DNA of 64,000 nt from Rhodobacteraceae bacterium (ex Bugula neritina AB1). GTDB taxonomy: Bacteria; Pseudomonadota; Alphaproteobacteria; Rhodobacterales; Rhodobacteraceae. The stretch covers positions 123,951-187,950 of the forward strand of contig MDLF01000060.1 of NCBI GenBank assembly GCA_001730095.1. Direction: 5' to 3'. The translations under genes were made by a program, and so were the position numbers. Position 1 is the first letter of the stretch; every line of letters begins with the position of its first letter. This document shows positions 10,075 to 17,374 of this stretch, piece after piece. The notes beneath the pieces are model-generated. The model saw only the letters and a list, made by a program, of their open reading frames with translations. It did no database searches and was not told the origin of the DNA.

Positions 10075-12432
10075 ATGAGCAGTTTTGACGAAATGGACGC
10101 CTTTGAGGGCGCATCGCTGTCATCCCGCGCCATGGCGGCGCGGCCGATGCCGTATATGGACTCGCTGAACCCGGCGCAGCGTGAGGCTGTGGAATGTCTT
10201 GATGGCCCGGTGCTGATGCTGGCGGGCGCTGGAACCGGCAAAACCAAGGCGTTGACCACCCGCATCGTGCATCTTCTCAGCACCGGCAGGGCGCGCCCGA
10301 ATGAGATCCTGTCGGTCACCTTCACCAACAAGGCCGCACGCGAGATGAAGGAACGTGTCGGTGGCATGCTCGGCCAGGCGGTGGAAGGCATGCCGTGGCT
10401 CGGCACCTTCCATTCGATCTGCGTCAAGCTGCTGCGCCGCCATGCGGAGCTGGCTGGGCTGAAGTCGAACTTCACCATTCTGGATACGGATGACCAGATC
10501 CGGCTTTTGAAACAGCTGATCAAGGCGGCAGGCATTGATGACAAGCGTTGGCCCGCGCGAATGCTGGCCAATATCATCGACGACTGGAAAAACCGCGCGC
10601 TGGCGCCGGACAAGGTGCCGGTTGCCGATGCCGGTGCCTATAACAGCCGCGGCGCTGAATTCTATGCCCAGTACCAGACCCGCCTGCGCGAGCTGAACGC
10701 GGTCGATTTCGGTGATCTCCTCTTGCATATGGTCACGATTTTCCAGAACCACCCGGATGTGCTGGAGCAGTACCAGCGTTGGTTCCGCTATATCATGGTG
10801 GACGAATATCAGGATACCAATGTCGCCCAGTACCTCTGGCTGCGGCTCCTGGCGGGCGCCCATAAGAATGTCTGCTGCGTCGGCGATGATGACCAGTCGA
10901 TCTATGGCTGGCGCGGCGCCGAGGTTGGCAATATCCTGCGGTTTGAAAAGGATTTTCCCGGCGCCATGGTGGTGCGGCTGGAGCAGAACTACCGCTCTAC
11001 CGGCCATATTCTGGCGGCGGCTTCCAATGTCATCCGCGGCAATGCCGGCCGTCTGGGCAAGGAGCTTTGGACTGATGCCGGAGACGGCGAAAAACTCCGG
11101 CTGATCGGCCACTGGGACGGCGAGGAAGAAGCGCGCTGGATCGGTGAAGAAATTGAAATGATGCAACGCGGCACGCGCGGCCAGGCGCCCATCGGCCTCA
11201 ACAGCATGGCTATTCTTGTGCGTGCCTCGCATCAGATGCGCGCGTTTGAGGACCGTTTCCTGACCATCGGCCTGCCGTACCGGGTGATCGGCGGCCCACG
11301 TTTCTATGAGCGGCTCGAGATCCGCGATGCGATGGCCTATTTCCGCGTCGTGGTCTCGCCGGATGACGATCTGGCGTTCGAACGCATCGTCAACACCCCC
11401 AAACGCGGCCTTGGCGACAAGGCGCAGCAGACCATCCAGGGTATCGCTCGTGAACATGGTATTTCACTGGTCGAAGGCGCCCGGCTGGCGGTGGAAAGCG
11501 GCCAAATCAAAGGCAAGGGCGGCGGCGCCCTGCGCCAGTTGGTCGAAGGCATTGCCCGTTGGGGCCATATGGCAGGCGACGCGGACATCACCCATATGGA
11601 GCTGGCAGAAATCATTCTGGACGAGTCGGGCTACACAACGATGTGGCAGAACGACAAGAATCCGGATTCGCCGGGCCGCCTGGAAAACCTCAAGGAACTG
11701 GTAAAGGCGCTGGAGTCTTTTGAAAACCTGCAGGGCTTCCTCGAACACGTCAGTCTGGTGATGGACAACGACAAACAGGACGCGGACGAGAAGGTCTCAA
11801 TCATGACTCTGCACGCCGCCAAAGGGCTGGAGTTTCCCGCCGTCTTCCTGCCGGGCTGGGAGGACGGGCTGTTTCCCTCGCAGCGCTCGATGGATGAAAG
11901 TGGTCAGAAGGGGCTCGAGGAGGAGCGCCGCCTGGCCTATGTCGGTATCACAAGGGCCGAGGAAATCTGTACCATCTCCTTTGCGGGCAACCGCCGGGTG
12001 TTCGGCCAATGGCAATCACAGCTGCCCTCGCGTTTCATTGATGAACTGCCAGAGGAGCATGTCGAGGTGCTGACGCCACCAGGGCTCTATGGCGGCGGCT
12101 ACGGCGCGGCTGCGCCGGGGGCAGGGCAGGTGAAATCCACCATAGATGAACGAGTGGCGCAGGCCGACGGCTATAACTCGCCGGGCTGGAAACGGATGCA
12201 GGCCCGGGCCGGCCAATTCGGGCTTTCCCAGCCGAAAGAAAGCAAGAACACGGTGATCGATCTCACCGCCACGTCCAGTTTCACCTTGGGGGAGCGGGTG
12301 TTTCACCAGAAATTCGGCTATGGCGCTATCACAGGCATTGAGGGCGACAAGCTGGAAGTGGATTTTGAGAAAGCGGGGCTAAAGAAGGTGGTAGCCCGGT
12401 TTGTCTCAGCACCGGACGACGTTCCTTTCTGA
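10075..12432 (+). CDS. uvrD: UvrD/PcrA-type DNA helicase
   Basis: A 785-residue superfamily 1A 3'-5' helicase. In order: Q motif LNPAQREAVE, Walker A LAGAGTGKTKA, motif Ia FTNKAAREMKERV, motif II MVDEYQDTN, motif III GDDDQSIYGWRGA, motif IV LEQNYRS, motif V MTLHAAKGLEFPAVFLPG and motif VI RRLAYVGITRAEE. A C-terminal FHQKFGYGAITGIEGDKLEVDFEKAG segment matches the RNA-polymerase-binding Tudor-like tail of PcrA/UvrD. It unwinds DNA in nucleotide excision and mismatch repair and clears stalled polymerase. The start at MSSFDEMDAFEG was chosen over the in-frame codons at 10027 and 10051 because AGGATC precedes it and relatives begin there. A LexA box lies upstream. Confidence 0.95.
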   Translation: MSSFDEMDAFEGASLSSRAMAARPMPYMDSLNPAQREAVECLDGPVLMLAGAGTGKTKALTTRIVHLLSTGRARPNEILSVTFTNKAAREMKERVGGMLGQAVEGMPWLGTFHSICVKLLRRHAELAGLKSNFTILDTDDQIRLLKQLIKAAGIDDKRWPARMLANIIDDWKNRALAPDKVPVADAGAYNSRGAEFYAQYQTRLRELNAVDFGDLLLHMVTIFQNHPDVLEQYQRWFRYIMVDEYQDTNVAQYLWLRLLAGAHKNVCCVGDDDQSIYGWRGAEVGNILRFEKDFPGAMVVRLEQNYRSTGHILAAASNVIRGNAGRLGKELWTDAGDGEKLRLIGHWDGEEEARWIGEEIEMMQRGTRGQAPIGLNSMAILVRASHQMRAFEDRFLTIGLPYRVIGGPRFYERLEIRDAMAYFRVVVSPDDDLAFERIVNTPKRGLGDKAQQTIQGIAREHGISLVEGARLAVESGQIKGKGGGALRQLVEGIARWGHMAGDADITHMELAEIILDESGYTTMWQNDKNPDSPGRLENLKELVKALESFENLQGFLEHVSLVMDNDKQDADEKVSIMTLHAAKGLEFPAVFLPGWEDGLFPSQRSMDESGQKGLEEERRLAYVGITRAEEICTISFAGNRRVFGQWQSQLPSRFIDELPEEHVEVLTPPGLYGGGYGAAAPGAGQVKSTIDERVAQADGYNSPGWKRMQARAGQFGLSQPKESKNTVIDLTATSSFTLGERVFHQKFGYGAITGIEGDKLEVDFEKAGLKKVVARFVSAPDDVPF

Positions 12433-13315
12433 ACAGGTCAGTTGCACCGGCAAGGCCGGCGGATCGGATCGCGCAGCGATCCGATCCGGGCGCAGGCGCG
12501 GCGGGCAGCAAAGGGCCGCGCGGCTCTTTCAGCACCAGTGCCGCCAGGATCACCGAGACCGGGATCGACACCTGTCGCACTGCGCTGACCGCAGCGGCCT
12601 CGGCGCCCAATTGGAACACCCGCAGGATCAGCAGATACGACAGGTAGGAAGACAATCCTGCAAACAGGATGCGCCAGGGGTGCTGCGTCCAGCCCCGCAC
12701 CACGCCCAGCAAAGGTGCTGATTGCCCCCTGTCCTCCCAGGCCCGCAAGGCCCCCATGGCCAGCGTCACCAGAAAATAGCTCCAGAACAGGAACGGCGCG
12801 CTGCTGGTGCCTTGCATCGCAGTCGCATCTGAAATCGAATAGGCCGCCGATCCCAGCATCGCCATCCCGGCCATGGCAAAGGCGCGCGGGTCATCCAGCA
12901 GTCGCCCCTTGCCCTTTTGGATCATCAGCCCGGCCCAGATGATCAGCCCCATGCCCAAGAGGGCTGCGACTGAGTAACTCTGCCCCAACATCAGCCAGCT
13001 GAAGCCCGCAATGGCCAAAGGCGAAGAGCGTACAATCGGATAATAGGCCGAGACATTGCCCCGCCGCAGCGCCGACAGCGTGCCGTAGTAATACACCGTC
13101 AGCCCCAGAGCCGAGGCCAGAACCAGCGGCCAGACGTCGGCAGGAAGGGCCGGGTTCTGCCCTGTCAGCGCCATATGAAAGGAGGCAAACACGACCCAGC
13201 TGAGGCACACCCCGGTGTAACAGGACACCGGATGCGCCACGCCCTTTAGCGTCAGGTCTCGCAGCGGATGGGTGGCCGCCGACAGAAGGACCAGCAGGAT
13301 CCAGGAAAACTCCAC
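12329..13315 (-). CDS. EamA/DMT-family transporter with abnormal C-terminus
   Basis: A 328-residue inner-membrane protein with about nine hydrophobic segments in two EamA halves, typical of drug/metabolite transporters; the substrate is unknown. It starts with GTG directly after the TAA of the phosphodiesterase gene, so the two are probably translated together. Up to about residue 265 (ILAALVLKEPRG) it reads as a normal transporter. The last 60 or so residues lack the expected tenth membrane helix, pass through a perfect 13-bp palindrome and run 104 bp antisense into the end of uvrD. I infer a frameshift or rearrangement near 12500–12530 that removed the natural end. Confidence 0.8.
   Translation of the reverse strand: MEFSWILLVLLSAATHPLRDLTLKGVAHPVSCYTGVCLSWVVFASFHMALTGQNPALPADVWPLVLASALGLTVYYYGTLSALRRGNVSAYYPIVRSSPLAIAGFSWLMLGQSYSVAALLGMGLIIWAGLMIQKGKGRLLDDPRAFAMAGMAMLGSAAYSISDATAMQGTSSAPFLFWSYFLVTLAMGALRAWEDRGQSAPLLGVVRGWTQHPWRILFAGLSSYLSYLLILRVFQLGAEAAAVSAVRQVSIPVSVILAALVLKEPRGPLLPAAPAPGSDRCAIRSAGLAGATDLFRKERRPVLRQTGLPPSLAPLSQNPLPACRPQCL
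12460..12488. repeat. perfect inverted repeat between convergent uvrD and transporter genes
   Basis: CGGATCGGATCGC (12460–12472) and its exact complement (12476–12488) flank a 3-base loop. It lies 28 bp after the uvrD stop. No T-run follows on either strand, so it is a REP-like palindrome or an RNA stabiliser rather than a classical terminator. Confidence 0.7.
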
Positions 13316-14104
13316 TTAACGGCCCGCGTCCCGGCCAGGGCGGTCCAGATAGGCGTCGAAATGAACAGTGAGCTGATCATCGCCCACCTGCACCACGCCA
13401 TAGGCCATGGGTTCAATGCTGTATTCCGACCCAGCCCGTTCCGGCACCAGTGGGATCTGGTGGTTGGTGCTGGGCAGCGAGGTGAAACTGTAACCGCGCC
13501 AGTTCACATAGGTCATCCGGTGGATGTGGCCAAAGAAGATGTGGCGGATGTTCCGCCCCTTCCTGAGCGCCGTGTGAAACGCCTCTGGATTGCGCAGTTT
13601 GATGTCGTCCACATAGGGCAGGTCGATGTCAAACGGCGGATGATGCAGGAACAGGAACACCGGCGCATTCCCTGCGGCCTCCAGCTCCGTCTCCAGCCAG
13701 GCCAGCCGTTCTGTGCACAGTTCTCCATCATGCACATCCGGCCCGCCGGTCAGCGTATCCAGGAACAGGAACTTCGCGCCGCCCGCCGCATGGCTGTGCT
13801 GCACATAGCTGCCGCTGCTGCGCGGATGATCCGAAAAGACCTGCAGAAAATTCTCCCGCACGTCGTGATTTCCCAACATCAGGAAGGTCGGCAGCGGAAA
13901 GGCTGCCAATTGCTCCTGCAACCAGCCATAGGCTGCCGGATCGCCCTCATCTGCCAGATCGCCGGAAATCACGCAGAATTCCGCATCCCGGTGCCATGCC
14001 GCAATATCGGCCAGTACCCGCGTCAGGTTCGCCGCCGGATCGCCGCCGTTCAGTGGCACGCCCGGTGCCATCAGGTGAATATCTGTAAGGTGGATGAATT
14101 TCAT
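13316..14104 (-). CDS. metallophosphoesterase, 3',5'-cyclic-nucleotide phosphodiesterase-like (CpdA type)
   Basis: A 262-residue calcineurin-like phosphoesterase. The five metal-binding blocks appear in order: FIHLTDIHL, VISGDLADEG, MLGNHDVREN, FLFLHHPPF and FFGHIHRMTYVNWRG. The block pattern and length match the CpdA/Icc class, which hydrolyses cAMP or related phosphodiesters, but substrates vary widely in this family. The ATG at 14104 places FIHLTDIHL at residues 3–11, as in relatives; the longer frame upstream has no homology. It is directly followed on the same strand by the transporter gene. Confidence 0.85.
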   Translation of the reverse strand: MKFIHLTDIHLMAPGVPLNGGDPAANLTRVLADIAAWHRDAEFCVISGDLADEGDPAAYGWLQEQLAAFPLPTFLMLGNHDVRENFLQVFSDHPRSSGSYVQHSHAAGGAKFLFLDTLTGGPDVHDGELCTERLAWLETELEAAGNAPVFLFLHHPPFDIDLPYVDDIKLRNPEAFHTALRKGRNIRHIFFGHIHRMTYVNWRGYSFTSLPSTNHQIPLVPERAGSEYSIEPMAYGVVQVGDDQLTVHFDAYLDRPGRDAGR

Positions 14105-14228
14105 GGCGCGGCCCCGCAAATCACTGCTGTTTTTGTCGGTAATCAAACCAGCAGAAGCCGCCGAGCGATAGCAGGAAAACGTCAGCCTCCGGGTCCTTGC
14201 ACGGCAATATGCAGCGCCAAAACAAGAA

Positions 14229-14264
14229 ACGGCGGCGCCCAGGGAGGAGGAGGGGCGCCGCCGT
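14229..14264 (-). ncRNA. CcsR-like 'cuckoo' stem-loop 4, probably also the terminator
   Basis: A perfect 12-bp stem (ACGGCGGCGCCC, 14229–14240, with 14253–14264) has a 12-base loop reading CTCCTCCTCCCT on the minus strand. It is the most distal of four such units downstream of the DUF1127 gene. The minus strand continues with TTTCTTGTTTTGG, which makes this unit a likely terminator as well. Confidence 0.85.
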
Positions 14265-14273
14265 TCTGTCAAA

Positions 14274-14304
14274 CACCGGGACTAAGGGAGGAGGAGACCC
14301 GGTG
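14274..14304 (-). ncRNA. CcsR-like 'cuckoo' stem-loop 3
   Basis: A 7-bp stem (CACCGGG with CCCGGTG) has a 17-base loop containing CTCCTCCTCCCTT on the minus strand. A small extra hairpin (around CCGGCTTTTGGCCGG, about 14312–14327) lies between this unit and unit 2. Confidence 0.8.
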
Positions 14305-14334
14305 AGTCAAACCCGGCTTTTGGCCGGTATAGGG

Positions 14335-14370
14335 TGCGGCGGCATCAGGGAGGAGGAGGATGCCGCCGCA
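14335..14370 (-). ncRNA. CcsR-like 'cuckoo' stem-loop 2
   Basis: A perfect 12-bp stem (TGCGGCGGCATC, 14335–14346, with 14359–14370) has a 12-base loop CTCCTCCTCCCT on the minus strand. The stem differs in sequence from the other units while the loop is identical, which is the signature of this RNA family. Confidence 0.85.
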
Positions 14371-14375
14371 GAAGA

Positions 14376-14409
14376 CAGGCTCTTCTAAGGGAGGAGGAGA
14401 AGGAGCCTG
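14376..14409 (-). ncRNA. CcsR-like 'cuckoo' stem-loop 1
   Basis: A stem CAGGCTC (14376–14382) pairs with GAGCCTG (14403–14409), extended by imperfect pairs, around a loop with CTCCTCCTCCCTT on the minus strand. It is the first unit, starting 8 bp after the DUF1127 stop codon. In Rhodobacter sphaeroides such units are cut from the DUF1127 mRNA as CcsR1–CcsR4. Confidence 0.8.
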
Positions 14410-14417
14410 ATCTCTAT

Positions 14418-14627
14418 TCAGTTGTTCTCATATGCCGCCTGATAGGCGACGCGCTTGATTTCGGACCGGTTCAGGCCCAGGTCGGCCAGGTCGCGGGCGG
14501 TCAGTGCAGACAGCTCGTTGACGGTCTGGCGGTACAGCCGGTAGCGGACGAATTTGACCAGCAGCGCATCCAGGAAGCCCACCGGGGATGCAATGTTCAC
14601 CGCGGAGATCTGTTGTGCTGCAGCCAT
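14418..14627 (-). CDS. DUF1127 small protein, CcaF1-like
   Basis: A 69-residue DUF1127 protein. The domain covers residues about 28–62 (KFVRYRLYRQTVNELSALTA, then RDLADLGLNRSEIKRVAYQA), a basic two-helix unit. In Rhodobacter sphaeroides the equivalent protein CcaF1 binds RNA and acts in maturation of the CcsR sRNAs encoded in its own 3' UTR. Four CcsR-like stem-loops follow this gene in the same way, so the same role is inferred. The start has the ribosome-binding sequence AAGGAAT. In Rhodobacter the operon depends on alternative heat-shock sigma factors RpoHI/RpoHII; regulation here is inferred by analogy. Confidence 0.92.
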   Translation of the reverse strand: MAAAQQISAVNIASPVGFLDALLVKFVRYRLYRQTVNELSALTARDLADLGLNRSEIKRVAYQAAYENN

Positions 14628-14688
14628 TTGTCTATTCCTTCGTCTTGCCGTCTCGTCCTGCGCCGCTTTGGCGCTTGCTTGAGGAGTA

Positions 14689-14715
14689 ATTTAGGCGAAT
14701 GCTGCAGATGCACAA
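14689..14715 (-). promoter_or_regulatory. candidate promoter of the DUF1127–CcsR operon
   Basis: On the minus strand TTGTGC (14710–14715) and CTAAAT (14689–14694) are spaced by 15 bases, about 62 bp before the DUF1127 start. The match to RpoH-type promoters is loose; position is the main argument. Confidence 0.25.
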
Positions 14716-14984
14716 TCCCGGTCTTCGTCATTGCCGCTATGCAGCATTTGCATGGGTGCGTATCTTGTATCTGTTTGGAAAGGGGCGATATTTTCGGCGT
14801 TCTCTTAAGTATCTGTAAACCTGTTGCGGGTGCCGCTGCGTCAAGTGCGCGGCGTGAGGCTTCAGGGTTGGGCGCCGGGCAAACGGTCTGACCCGCGCAC
14901 CATGCGCAGCAATCGCGCTTGGCGGGTTCCAAGCCGGCGGAATGACACATATATATCGGCCGGAATTCACGCAGGAGAGCAGCC

Positions 14985-16049
14985 ATGGGTGTCACCCCGG
15001 AACAGATACATACAGTGCTGGAGCGGCTGGCGCTGCCGGACGGCGGCACTCTGGTGTCGCGCGACATGCTGCGGGCGCTGCGCATCGAAGGCAGCAAGGT
15101 GAGCTTTGTGATCGAAGCGCCAAGCCCTGAAATTGCCAAGCTGATGGAGCCGCTGCGCAAAGCCGCCGAAGCCGCCGTCCTGTCGCTGGAGGGCGTTGAA
15201 ACTGTCTCTGCTGCGCTGACTGCCCATGCCGCCCAGCAGCCGGCCCCCAGCCTCAAGGTGGGCGGCCATCCGAAACCGCAGGCGGAGCCGCTGAAACCTG
15301 CAGGCGTCAAGCGCATTCTGGCCGTTGGTTCGGGCAAGGGCGGGGTGGGCAAGTCCACTGTGTCGTCAAACCTCGCAGTGGCGCTGGCGAAACAGGGGCG
15401 CAAGGTCGGCCTGCTGGACGCCGACATCTACGGCCCGTCCCAGCCTCGCATGATGGGCGCCAAGGGCCGCCCTGCCAGCCCGGACGGCAAGATCATCGAA
15501 CCGTTGCATGCCCATGGCGTTACCCTGATGTCGATCGGTTTTATGGTCGATGATGCCAAGGCCGTGGTCTGGCGCGGCCCGATGCTGATGGGGGCGCTGC
15601 AGCAGATGCTGGGGCAGGTGAGCTGGGGGGAGCTGGATGTGCTGATCGTCGACCTGCCGCCCGGCACCGGTGATGTGCAATTGACGCTTTGCACCAAGGC
15701 GGAGCTTTCCGGCGCTATCGTCGTCTCCACTCCGCAGGACGTGGCGCTGCTGGATGCCCGCAAGGCGCTGGACATGTTCAACACGCTGAAAACCCCGGTG
15801 CTGGGATTGATCGAGAACATGTCCTTCTTCACCTGCCCGGACTGCGGCGGGGAGCATCACATTTTCGGCCATGGCGGCGTCGCGGCTGAGGCTGAAACAT
15901 TGGGCCTGCCGCTATTGGGGGCGCTGCCGATTGATCTGGACACCCGGCTGGCCGGCGACAGCGGCACACCCATTGCGGCGGGGGAGGGGCCGATGGCCCG
16001 GGCCTATGCCCGTATCGCAGAGGGGCTGATTGGCGGCGGCATGGCCTGA
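14985..16049 (+). CDS. mrp: Mrp/ApbC iron–sulfur cluster carrier ATPase
   Basis: A 354-residue Mrp/NBP35-family P-loop protein that carries and transfers [4Fe-4S] clusters. An N-terminal MIP18-like (DUF59) domain spans about 1–75. The ATPase starts near 107 with the deviant Walker A VGSGKGGVGKSTVSSNLA. DADIYGPSQPRM, DLPPGTGDVQLT and the cluster-binding CxxC in FFTCPDCGGEHHIFG follow. The start is preceded by CAGGAGAG. It is divergent from the DUF1127–CcsR operon and ends at a strong terminator. Confidence 0.97.
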   Translation: MGVTPEQIHTVLERLALPDGGTLVSRDMLRALRIEGSKVSFVIEAPSPEIAKLMEPLRKAAEAAVLSLEGVETVSAALTAHAAQQPAPSLKVGGHPKPQAEPLKPAGVKRILAVGSGKGGVGKSTVSSNLAVALAKQGRKVGLLDADIYGPSQPRMMGAKGRPASPDGKIIEPLHAHGVTLMSIGFMVDDAKAVVWRGPMLMGALQQMLGQVSWGELDVLIVDLPPGTGDVQLTLCTKAELSGAIVVSTPQDVALLDARKALDMFNTLKTPVLGLIENMSFFTCPDCGGEHHIFGHGGVAAEAETLGLPLLGALPIDLDTRLAGDSGTPIAAGEGPMARAYARIAEGLIGGGMA

Positions 16050-16081
16050 GGCAGTCAGCTGCCCGCCAGCCCGGATGTTTG

Positions 16082-16114
16082 AAAAGGCCCGCTGCCACGG
16101 CGGGCCTTTTGTTT
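16082..16114 (+). terminator. rho-independent terminator of mrp
   Basis: AAAAGGCCCGC and GCGGGCCTTTT pair around a short loop, and the T-run TTTTGTTTT follows on the plus strand. It begins 33 bp after the mrp stop. Confidence 0.9.
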
Positions 16115-16149
16115 TCGGTTTGGGCGCAGACGGGATTGCCCGGCCGGAA

Positions 16150-16273
16150 TGGGAACACATGGCACATGCTATGCCGTATGGGATTTGGCGGGACGGCTGG
16201 GACTGCATGGGTCGGCTGGGAATTCGCGGGACCGGTGGGAAATCATGGGCGCCATGGGATTTTATGGCCTGCC
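16150..16273 (+). repeat. degenerate 19-bp tandem repeat array with TGGG every 9–10 bp
   Basis: TGGG, CGGG or TGG tetramers start at 16150, 16160, 16179, 16189, 16198, 16208, 16217, 16227, 16236, 16246, 16255 and 16265. Spacing alternates 10 and 9 bp, with one member missing near 16170. The clearest 19-bp units begin at 16179, 16198, 16217, 16236 and 16255, for example TGGGAATTCGCGGGACCGG. The spacers are not conserved, and 19 is not a multiple of three, so this is not a coding repeat. It lies between the mrp terminator and mraZ. MraZ is known to bind direct TGGGN repeats spaced about 10 bp, so a binding array is one reading. Confidence 0.6.
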
Positions 16274-16411
16274 TCCCGAAATTCACCCCTTGCAGTTGCG
16301 AATCGCAGTGTGCTGAAACGCTGAAGTGCGAGGTTTTCGCATTTCCGGATGCAGTTGAGGGGGAACGTAAGGGGAACTTGATTGAGGTCTACTGTCAGGC
16401 AGATGGAATCG

Positions 16412-16431
16412 CGGGAAAATATGGGAAAAAA
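16412..16431 (+). promoter_or_regulatory. candidate MraZ box
   Basis: CGGGAAAATATGGGAAAAAA contains two YGGGA repeats exactly 10 bp apart with AT-rich spacers, the described form of MraZ operators that autoregulate dcw clusters. It is about 450 bp upstream of mraZ, which implies a long leader if it marks the promoter. Confidence 0.45.
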
Positions 16432-16827
16432 ATCTCCCCTGCAACCTGTGTCTATATCTGGTGTGTAGCTGCAGTTTCTCCGCTAATTGTTCTGATTTTG
16501 CCTTCTTTTGGTCACGAATCTCAGGCCGATCTGTGGAATCTCTGTCAAGGATTCGACTGTGTCTCGCAGAAAACTGTTGCGTGCCCATCAATTCCCATAG
16601 TATCCCTTCTACATCGAATGAGACGAGGGACGGGGCACCAAACGACCCCAAGCCAAACTAAAAGAGCAGGTTTCATACAGGCCTTCGCTTTCATCGAACA
16701 AAGAGATCCGGCGCGCGGGCGAGCAGACATCCCCCCAGGTGGCGCGCGCAGTCGGACATCCCGCAAAGCGGGTCAAGGTGGCGGGTTGATCAGTGGCAGC
16801 AGATCAGCCCGCCCCTTTACATTCTGG

Positions 16828-16865
16828 GGGACGGTTTAACGCGAGGGACGCGCGGAAAAGGGACG
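16828..16865 (+). repeat. three GGGACG direct repeats before mraZ
   Basis: GGGACG occurs at 16828, 16845 and 16860, spaced 17 and 15 bp; the last overlaps the mraZ ribosome-binding site. They may be degenerate MraZ contacts or chance in GC-rich DNA; the spacing does not fit the 10-bp rule. Confidence 0.25.
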
Positions 16866-16870
16866 GTAAC

Positions 16871-17374
16871 TTGGGCCGCAGGTTCAGAGGTGAAAGCCAC
16901 CACAAGGTGGACAGCAAGGGGCGGGTGTCGATACCGGCCTCCTTTCGCCGTGTGCTGGAGGCCGCTGATCCCAACTGGCAGTCCGGTCAGAACCCCGAAC
17001 TGGTGATCGTCTATGGCGACCAGCGCCGCAATTTCCTGGAATGCTATACGATCGAGGCGATCGAAGAGGTCGACGCCAAGATCGACCAGCTCCCGCGCGG
17101 CTCGATGCAGCGCAAGATGCTGCAGCGGATGTTCCACGGTCAGTCCTTTCCGACCAATGTCGACGAGACCGGCCGTCTGGTGCTGCCCGCCAAGCTGCGC
17201 CAGAAAATCGACCTCGATGCCGAAGCCTTCTTTATTGCCGCGGGCGACACCTTCCAGATATGGAAGCCGGAAACCTACGAGGAAGAGGAGCTGGCCAAGG
17301 CCGAAGAGTGGCTGGACGACCTGCCCGACGACTTCGATCCAATGGAATTCCTAGACGGCGCCGGGGGCGCTTAA
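16871..17374 (+). CDS. mraZ: MraZ, transcriptional regulator of the dcw cluster
   Basis: A 167-residue MraZ protein with two SpoVT/AbrB-like DNA-binding halves: HHKVDSKGRVSIPASFR near the N-terminus and NVDETGRLVLPAKLRQKI in the middle, followed by an acidic C-terminal tail. MraZ forms rings and binds direct TGGGN repeats to control its own cluster. I chose the TTG at 16871 because AGGGACGG precedes it and MGRRFRGE is the usual N-terminus; the frame upstream has no homology. rsmH follows after 3 bp. Confidence 0.93.
   Translation: MGRRFRGESHHKVDSKGRVSIPASFRRVLEAADPNWQSGQNPELVIVYGDQRRNFLECYTIEAIEEVDAKIDQLPRGSMQRKMLQRMFHGQSFPTNVDETGRLVLPAKLRQKIDLDAEAFFIAAGDTFQIWKPETYEEEELAKAEEWLDDLPDDFDPMEFLDGAGGA

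Follow-up and report, generated by a model that had tools for sequence, protein, structure and literature searches.

We recovered a DUF1127 gene and four hairpins behind it, beginning right past its stop codon, on the minus strand of the window, the whole stretch of 64,000 nucleotides that was analyzed (Table 1). The gene is ccaF1-like. A preliminary description had reported this order, and the observation is confirmed by the Pfam match of the gene and by four exact copies of CTCCTCCTCCC on the minus strand (14389-14399, 14348-14358, 14286-14296, and 14242-14252). The plus strand of the window contains no exact copy. The motifs follow each other at 41, 62, and 44 nt. That description contained neither the spacer hairpin nor the conserved promoter block upstream of the gene.

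Table 1. Positions of the features at the DUF1127 locus in window coordinates, in minus-strand order
Feature	Position	Strand	Basis or remark
Promoter dyad CCATGCA-N5-TGCATAG (class ATGCR-N5-YGCAT)	14737..14755	minus	Sequence match
CTGCATAGCGG, PhaR-like site	14734..14744	minus	One mismatch from PhaR site CTGCNNNGCAG; overlaps dyad
-35-type box ATTGTGCATCTGCAGCA	14700..14716	minus	Conserved box
Putative -10 TAAATT	14688..14693	minus	16 nt after TTGTGC; predicted from alignment
DUF1127 gene, CcaF1-like, 69 aa	14418..14627	minus	PF06568, 51.7 bits (cut-off, 23.3)
CcsR-type unit 1 (hairpins 1 and 2)	14331..14419	minus	RF02791, 39.6 bits, genome-wide E 6e-8
Hairpin 1, unit 1	14376..14409	minus	CTCCTCCTCCC loop; outer stem CAGGCTC/GAGCCTG; imperfect
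Hairpin 2, unit 1	14335..14370	minus	Perfect 12-bp stem, 12-nt loop
Spacer hairpin, no motif	14313..14327	minus	CCGGC-CAAAA-GCCGG; between hairpins 2 and 3, separates units
CcsR-type unit 2 (hairpins 3 and 4)	14224..14312	minus	RF02791, 42.2 bits, genome-wide E 1e-8
Hairpin 3, unit 2	14274..14304	minus	CTCCTCCTCCC loop; imperfect
Hairpin 4, unit 2	14227..14266	minus	14 pairs (one G-U), 12-nt loop, then CTTGTTTT

The locus is followed on the same strand (12329-14104) by a cyclic-nucleotide phosphodiesterase-like gene, which scored below the NCBIfam cut-offs, and by an EamA transporter gene. Beside it lie mrp and then an MraZ-like gene (14985-17374), the latter named from its sequence. In R. sphaeroides, UpsM derives from the mraZ 5' UTR. 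The stretch before mraZ in the window may contain its counterpart; no Rfam match in this region reached its gathering score.

The genome (4.67 Mbp) contains eight exact copies of the CTCCTCCTCCC 11-mer, four of them at the locus, and three copies of the backward-read control. The other four copies lack comparable hairpins. When the motif is kept from pairing, they form 2, 2, 4, and 5 uninterrupted pairs, and the best of them has five pairs but a 24-nt loop. The 203-nt hairpin region folds at -94.1 kcal/mol compared with -61.0 for shuffles (SD, 4.3; z = -7.7), and none of 200 shuffles was as stable. The spacer hairpin also forms in the single-sequence fold of the window, and its presence fits the uneven spacing of the motifs. 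Hairpin 4 is a motif hairpin and, with its U-rich tract, likely also an intrinsic terminator. A terminator scan retrieved one site, which lies beyond hairpin 4 (14164-14148, minus strand; shuffles, 1.0). It missed hairpin 4 because the loop exceeds the limit of the scan.

The stems are conserved in structure and not in sequence, as had been claimed, and they contain compensatory changes. In an alignment of 17 loci, which covers 44 pairs, 97.2% of the cells are paired (slid controls, 29 to 46%) and 26 cells are changed on both sides (slid controls, at most 3). A second alignment contained 33 second hairpins (32 distinct), retrieved from the window and from 32 of 51 named loci with a second motif 36 to 43 nt after the first and a nonduplicate sequence. 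Here, 92.6% of cells pair (at most 64.5% in slid controls), 64 cells are changed on both sides (at most 6), and the covariation score was reached by no shuffle. A measure of further pair types gave no excess over shuffles in the 17-locus and 33-hairpin alignments (494 and 479 of 500 shuffles as high, respectively). All 17 loci keep four exact CCTCCTCCC motifs while their stems change. In the 33-row alignment the motif is invariant by construction because the hairpins were found through CCTCCTCCC.

In the 17 loci, hairpin 4 is paired in 99.5% of cells and hairpin 3, the weakest helix, in 91.6%. The outer stem of hairpin 1 has two-sided changes in 2 of its 7 pairs. All five pairs of the spacer hairpin form in 17 of 17 loci with no two-sided change, so covariation is uninformative for it. 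RNAalifold draws the stretch of hairpin 3 otherwise, with long-range pairing; the single-sequence fold and the pair counts favor a separate hairpin over that drawing.

Overlapping open reading frames of 63 and 185 aa are present on the plus strand, and the feature could in principle be small ORFs or GGGAGGAGG sites on that strand. This is extremely improbable given the covariation of the stems and the position of the gene and all motif loops on the minus strand. Among the DUF1127 matches listed, moreover, the motif occurs neither upstream of the gene nor, on the other strand, in the 600 nt downstream of it.

The Rfam model CcsR1 (RF02791) matches the locus twice. Both matches cover the full model (positions 1 to 83), and each extends across two hairpins. 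The next-best match in the whole genome has an E value of 0.019. The identification of CcsR or cuckoo-type hairpins behind a CcaF1-like gene holds. The covariance match to the CcsR family that the preliminary description proposed as a check exists, but both scores are below the gathering score of 65.3. Default annotation misses the locus for this reason, as had been expected; at the gathering level, Rfam gives only tRNAs in the whole window. The threshold seems narrow for this bacterial family. CcsR1 matched 324 of 394 genomes of the family at E ≤ 0.001, and only 17 reached the gathering score. Among 14 control genomes, one (Thermus composti) was matched at E ≤ 0.001 as well; chance may thus account for a few of the 324 matches.

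The two matches also change the number of units. RS0680a of R. sphaeroides has two stem loops with the motif in each (PMC3927594, section 2.7), and CcsR1 to CcsR4 are the former RSs0680a to RSs0680d according to the accessible part of PMC5036791. Four CcsRs are therefore eight hairpins. Since the CcsR1 model covers two hairpins and matches twice, the four hairpins here are two CcsR-type units and not the four tandem CcsR RNAs previously proposed. L109, an R. sphaeroides-like locus, has five hairpin pairs, compared with two here. Window pair 1 scored best with internal pair 3 (93; other internal pairs, 75 to 84; terminal pair, 63), and window pair 2 scored best with the terminal pair (105; others, 63 to 78).

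The ar14 model (RF02344), an anti-Shine-Dalgarno sRNA family, matches hairpins 2 to 4 with 42.3 bits. The hairpins could then belong to that family, with the DUF1127 gene as an unrelated neighbor. We consider this very unlikely. The score is below the gathering score of ar14 itself (58.8), and the spacing of the pairs fits two-hairpin CcsR1 units. In addition, a CcsR1 search that made no use of the protein retrieved 30 loci that were kept, and 28 of these have a DUF1127 gene upstream.

The association of gene and motif extends across the family. A protein search matched 265 of 295 genomes, including that of the window, and 29 of the best 30 loci kept have the motif downstream. All 51 named relative loci have it downstream of a DUF1127 gene, in 1 to 14 copies. 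A strict hairpin test (at least five uninterrupted pairs and a loop no longer than 16 nt) placed 243 of 276 motifs from the named loci in a hairpin and 23 of 276 after the flanks were shuffled. This stricter control was used because the earlier test, with the motif forced unpaired, was lenient. The 225 gaps between motifs in the named loci fall into two classes, of 35 to 48 nt (137 gaps) and 58 to 95 nt (84 gaps). One locus (L027) contains fourteen motif hairpins with repeating spacings of 75 and 38 nt; it looks like a recent tandem duplication of one unit. The retrieved sequence includes an mrp relative in 39 of the 51 named loci and, in the other two sets, in 19 of 30 and 29 of 30 loci. It is divergent in the window, in L109, and in L097, the two relatives in which orientation was inspected.

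The window protein has full-length relatives of 81 to 97% identity in 12 loci (L052 to L063), 11 from named Leisingera and one from a Rhodobacteraceae MAG. Genome G238, from the same genus, contains a 75% match. We assign the window to Leisingera on this basis; the search for named relatives may have excluded records of its own genome. The host genome encodes seven DUF1127 genes, and a motif hairpin is present behind three of the seven. Three further copies are on contigs C18 (L006) and C75 (L010 and L011). The L006 gene and the downstream gene of L010/L011 are each directly followed by a single motif hairpin. Another DUF1127 protein, YjiS, was examined for RNA binding and no evidence was found, and small DUF1127 proteins of A. 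tumefaciens act via PhoR, a defect being complemented by R. sphaeroides CcaF1 (both from the part of PMC12501420 available).

These single hairpins behind paralogues, and the terminator-like tail of hairpin 4, would also suit a purely cis role, in which the hairpins protect the 3' end of the DUF1127 mRNA or terminate it and no trans-acting sRNA is made. Plain terminators need no common loop, and the four exact motifs kept in every one of the 17 loci despite stem change argue against this role. So do the mature CcsR RNAs published for R. sphaeroides, as described in the excerpts available. A purely cis role is unlikely.

The alignment of the loci upstream of the gene contains a conserved promoter block. 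We collected 110 distinct DUF1127 promoters from loci found by the protein or the RNA model. The sample is biased by this selection, by the many close relatives in it, and by the use of some of its members to derive the pattern. It does not include the promoters of L008 and L009 because the DUF1127 profile missed those two of the seven DUF1127 genes in the host genome. The dyad ATGCR-N5-YGCAT is perfect in 97 of the 110 promoters and within one mismatch in 105; the reversed pattern is within one mismatch in none. The box ATTGTGCANNYGCAGCA is present within one mismatch in 96 promoters and reversed in none. The distance from the dyad to the start of ATTGTGCANNYGCAGCA is 19 or 20 bp in 91 of 91 measured cases, which exclude promoters with more than two dyad mismatches or more than three box mismatches.

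The paralogues are a fairer check of the dyad than this sample. In the host genome, one paralogue on C18 and one on C75 are preceded by the dyad with one mismatch, and the second C75 gene by a dyad with two. For the three others of its seven DUF1127 genes, no dyad occurs within two mismatches. Eleven genomes, in counts made by eye, contain 32 sites that deviate from the dyad at no more than one position. Eleven of the 32 (about 0.014 expected) are within about 350 nt upstream of a DUF1127 gene (63 such genes), and of these 11, four are at paralogues. G386, G397, G399, and G400 have no dyad site by a DUF1127 gene. The other 21 sites are elsewhere, with at least one in 10 of the 11 genomes. The backward pattern was absent from 6 of 10 further genomes and was present 4, 1, 4, and 1 times in G361, G396, G398, and G399, respectively. 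The dyad pattern is therefore not specific outside promoters. The only perfect CTATGCR-N5-YGCATAG dyad of the host genome (L136; C74:100825-100843) is away from DUF1127 genes, just past the stop of a LysR-like gene as judged by eye. A plain 15-mer palindrome, TGCTGCATAGCAGCA, was considered as an alternative description. It has three sites in the genome, of which only that of the window is by a DUF1127 gene, and the dyad fits better.

RpoHI/HII promoters contain TTG at -35 and TAT at -12 (PMC10673084, in the portion available). The window contains TTGTGC with TAAATT as its putative -10, and many relatives contain TATnTT or CATGTT. A sigma-70 scan retrieved one site (14819-14790, minus strand; 9 of 12 matches; shuffles, 0.4) and did not detect the conserved box. 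That site could be another start. The cassette is not named in the titles and abstract openings listed from a literature text search. It points to a dimeric regulator. It is quite possible, and we propose it tentatively, that DUF1127-CcsR loci throughout the family have this rigid arrangement of the dyad, the 19- to 20-bp spacing, and ATTGTGCANNYGCAGCA over the -35, with the dyad as the operator of such a regulator. The regulator would act on top of RpoH-type control and coordinate several loci for DUF1127 and anti-Shine-Dalgarno RNA per genome. It would perhaps be LysR-like in geometry or overlap with PhaR.

PhaR of R. sphaeroides binds CTGCNNNGCAG (PMC12542648, excerpt). A perfect site is present in 76 of the 110 promoters and a reversed one in 4; the window site has one mismatch. 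The host genome contains a PhaR gene, and in its phasin promoter two perfect sites lie 30 bp from each other, so the PhaR site rule seems to hold in this genome. The phasin promoter has no dyad within three mismatches, and for this reason PhaR action at the DUF1127-CcsR promoters is no more than possible from the sequence. PhaR as the sole regulator was rejected. The site is present but moved by 8 bp in three loci (L035, L037, and L109), and its center is unlike that of the phasin sites.

Very probably, the locus is a Leisingera operon of the CcaF1-CcsR type, a kind published as the CIN1 locus, and comprises two CcsR-type units. We observed directly the gene, the hairpins, their covariation, the two CcsR1 matches, the shared neighborhood, and the promoter block; a transcript, its processing, stress control, and target blocking would be expected by analogy to relatives. 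A single transcript would begin at the box (14716-14688), pass through the DUF1127 gene, and terminate with hairpin 4. An endonuclease, RNase E if as in R. sphaeroides, would cleave it around the spacer hairpin and so set free two sRNAs, both with two hairpins. The DUF1127 protein would act on their maturation, and the released sRNAs would work with Hfq, again by analogy. The R. sphaeroides operon is described in this way, with one transcript, a cut by RNase E, involvement of CcaF1, and Hfq, in the available parts of PMC10253847, PMC8625941, PMC8307010, and PMC7866481.

The loops present CUCCUCCUCCC, the complement of an extended Shine-Dalgarno sequence, and under stress would mask ribosome-binding sites on selected mRNAs. 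As GGGAGGAGGAG, an extended ribosome-binding site, is the complement of the loop, a block of translation would be its natural mode, which is likewise presumed in PMC3927594 (section 2.7). Several findings count against the operon reading. Its scores are below gathering, and ar14 scores as high as CcsR1. The putative -10 is TAAATT and not the TAT of RpoHI/HII. L109 contains five pairs versus the four CcsRs in print. The measure of further pair types, the sigma-70-like site farther upstream, and the findings on YjiS and the A. tumefaciens proteins also count against it.

The pattern GGGAGGAG-N4-10-ATG retrieved 15 candidate target sites, and its backward control retrieved 2; a strong Shine-Dalgarno site by itself is no proof of targeting. 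One of the 15 is antisense to the CcsR locus itself. Frames at 10 of the 15 were searched against Pfam. Their products include a CO dehydrogenase flavoprotein-type protein (L171), TRAP transporter parts (L172 and L176), and DmsC (L180), and two of the ten (L170 and L181) matched no Pfam family. L171 is suggestive as a CcsR target because an effect of CcsRs on C1 metabolism is described for R. sphaeroides (PMC5036791, in its accessible part). We treat it only as a lead.

With this locus, the range of a known stress sRNA operon grows to include Leisingera, and the hairpin count is corrected to two per CcsR. The locus also indicates that the Rfam cut-off misses CcsR in most of the sampled genomes of the family. 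Since the number of units varies (1 to 14 motifs), it can be tested whether the number of anti-Shine-Dalgarno loops sets the strength of repression. The part most worth pursuing is the common promoter cassette, which is a handle for finding the missing regulator. Were PhaR involved, the state of carbon storage would gate an sRNA that damps translation in general.

The closest known system is the CcaF1-CcsR1-4 operon of R. sphaeroides (RSP_6037 and RSs0680a-d; RF02791). It likewise contains a small DUF1127 gene with paired motif hairpins directly downstream. The R. sphaeroides-like L109 and the window have in common a U-rich tail on the terminal hairpin, an mrp gene in divergent orientation, and the promoter block. 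Read from its ATG, the L109 protein has 71 aa as counted by hand, the length reported for CcaF1 of R. sphaeroides in the source excerpt available. We infer that L109 belongs to R. sphaeroides. The window protein, in contrast, has 69 aa. The window has two hairpin pairs, whereas four CcsR RNAs are published for R. sphaeroides and five pairs (ten hairpins) are present in L109; the four CcsR units of the published operon are thus two here. The window also differs from that operon in its scores below Rfam gathering and in its putative -10.

Alphaproteobacterial ar14 likewise consists of motif hairpins and differs in its match to the window, which is below the gathering score. SmelA075 and SmelA099 of the Rhizobiales, another order, have three or four CCUCCUCCC-loop hairpins with variable stems, as in the window (PMC3927594, section 2.7). 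In contrast to the window locus, the term DUF1127 is absent from the main text of that paper.

Reinkensmeier and Giegerich reportedly described the cuckoo RNA family and the CIN1 locus in 2015. Two to four hairpins, a conserved loop motif, and helices without sequence conservation define this kind of locus, and all are found here. The family also has a short DUF1127 gene nearby, as in the window (PMC10253847 and PMC4504443, in part). In the features compared, which are known here through citing papers, no difference from the window was found. The association of DUF1127 with the motif is already published as CIN1, and the window locus therefore adds to a known kind. It is a conserved locus of that published kind, with the unit count corrected.
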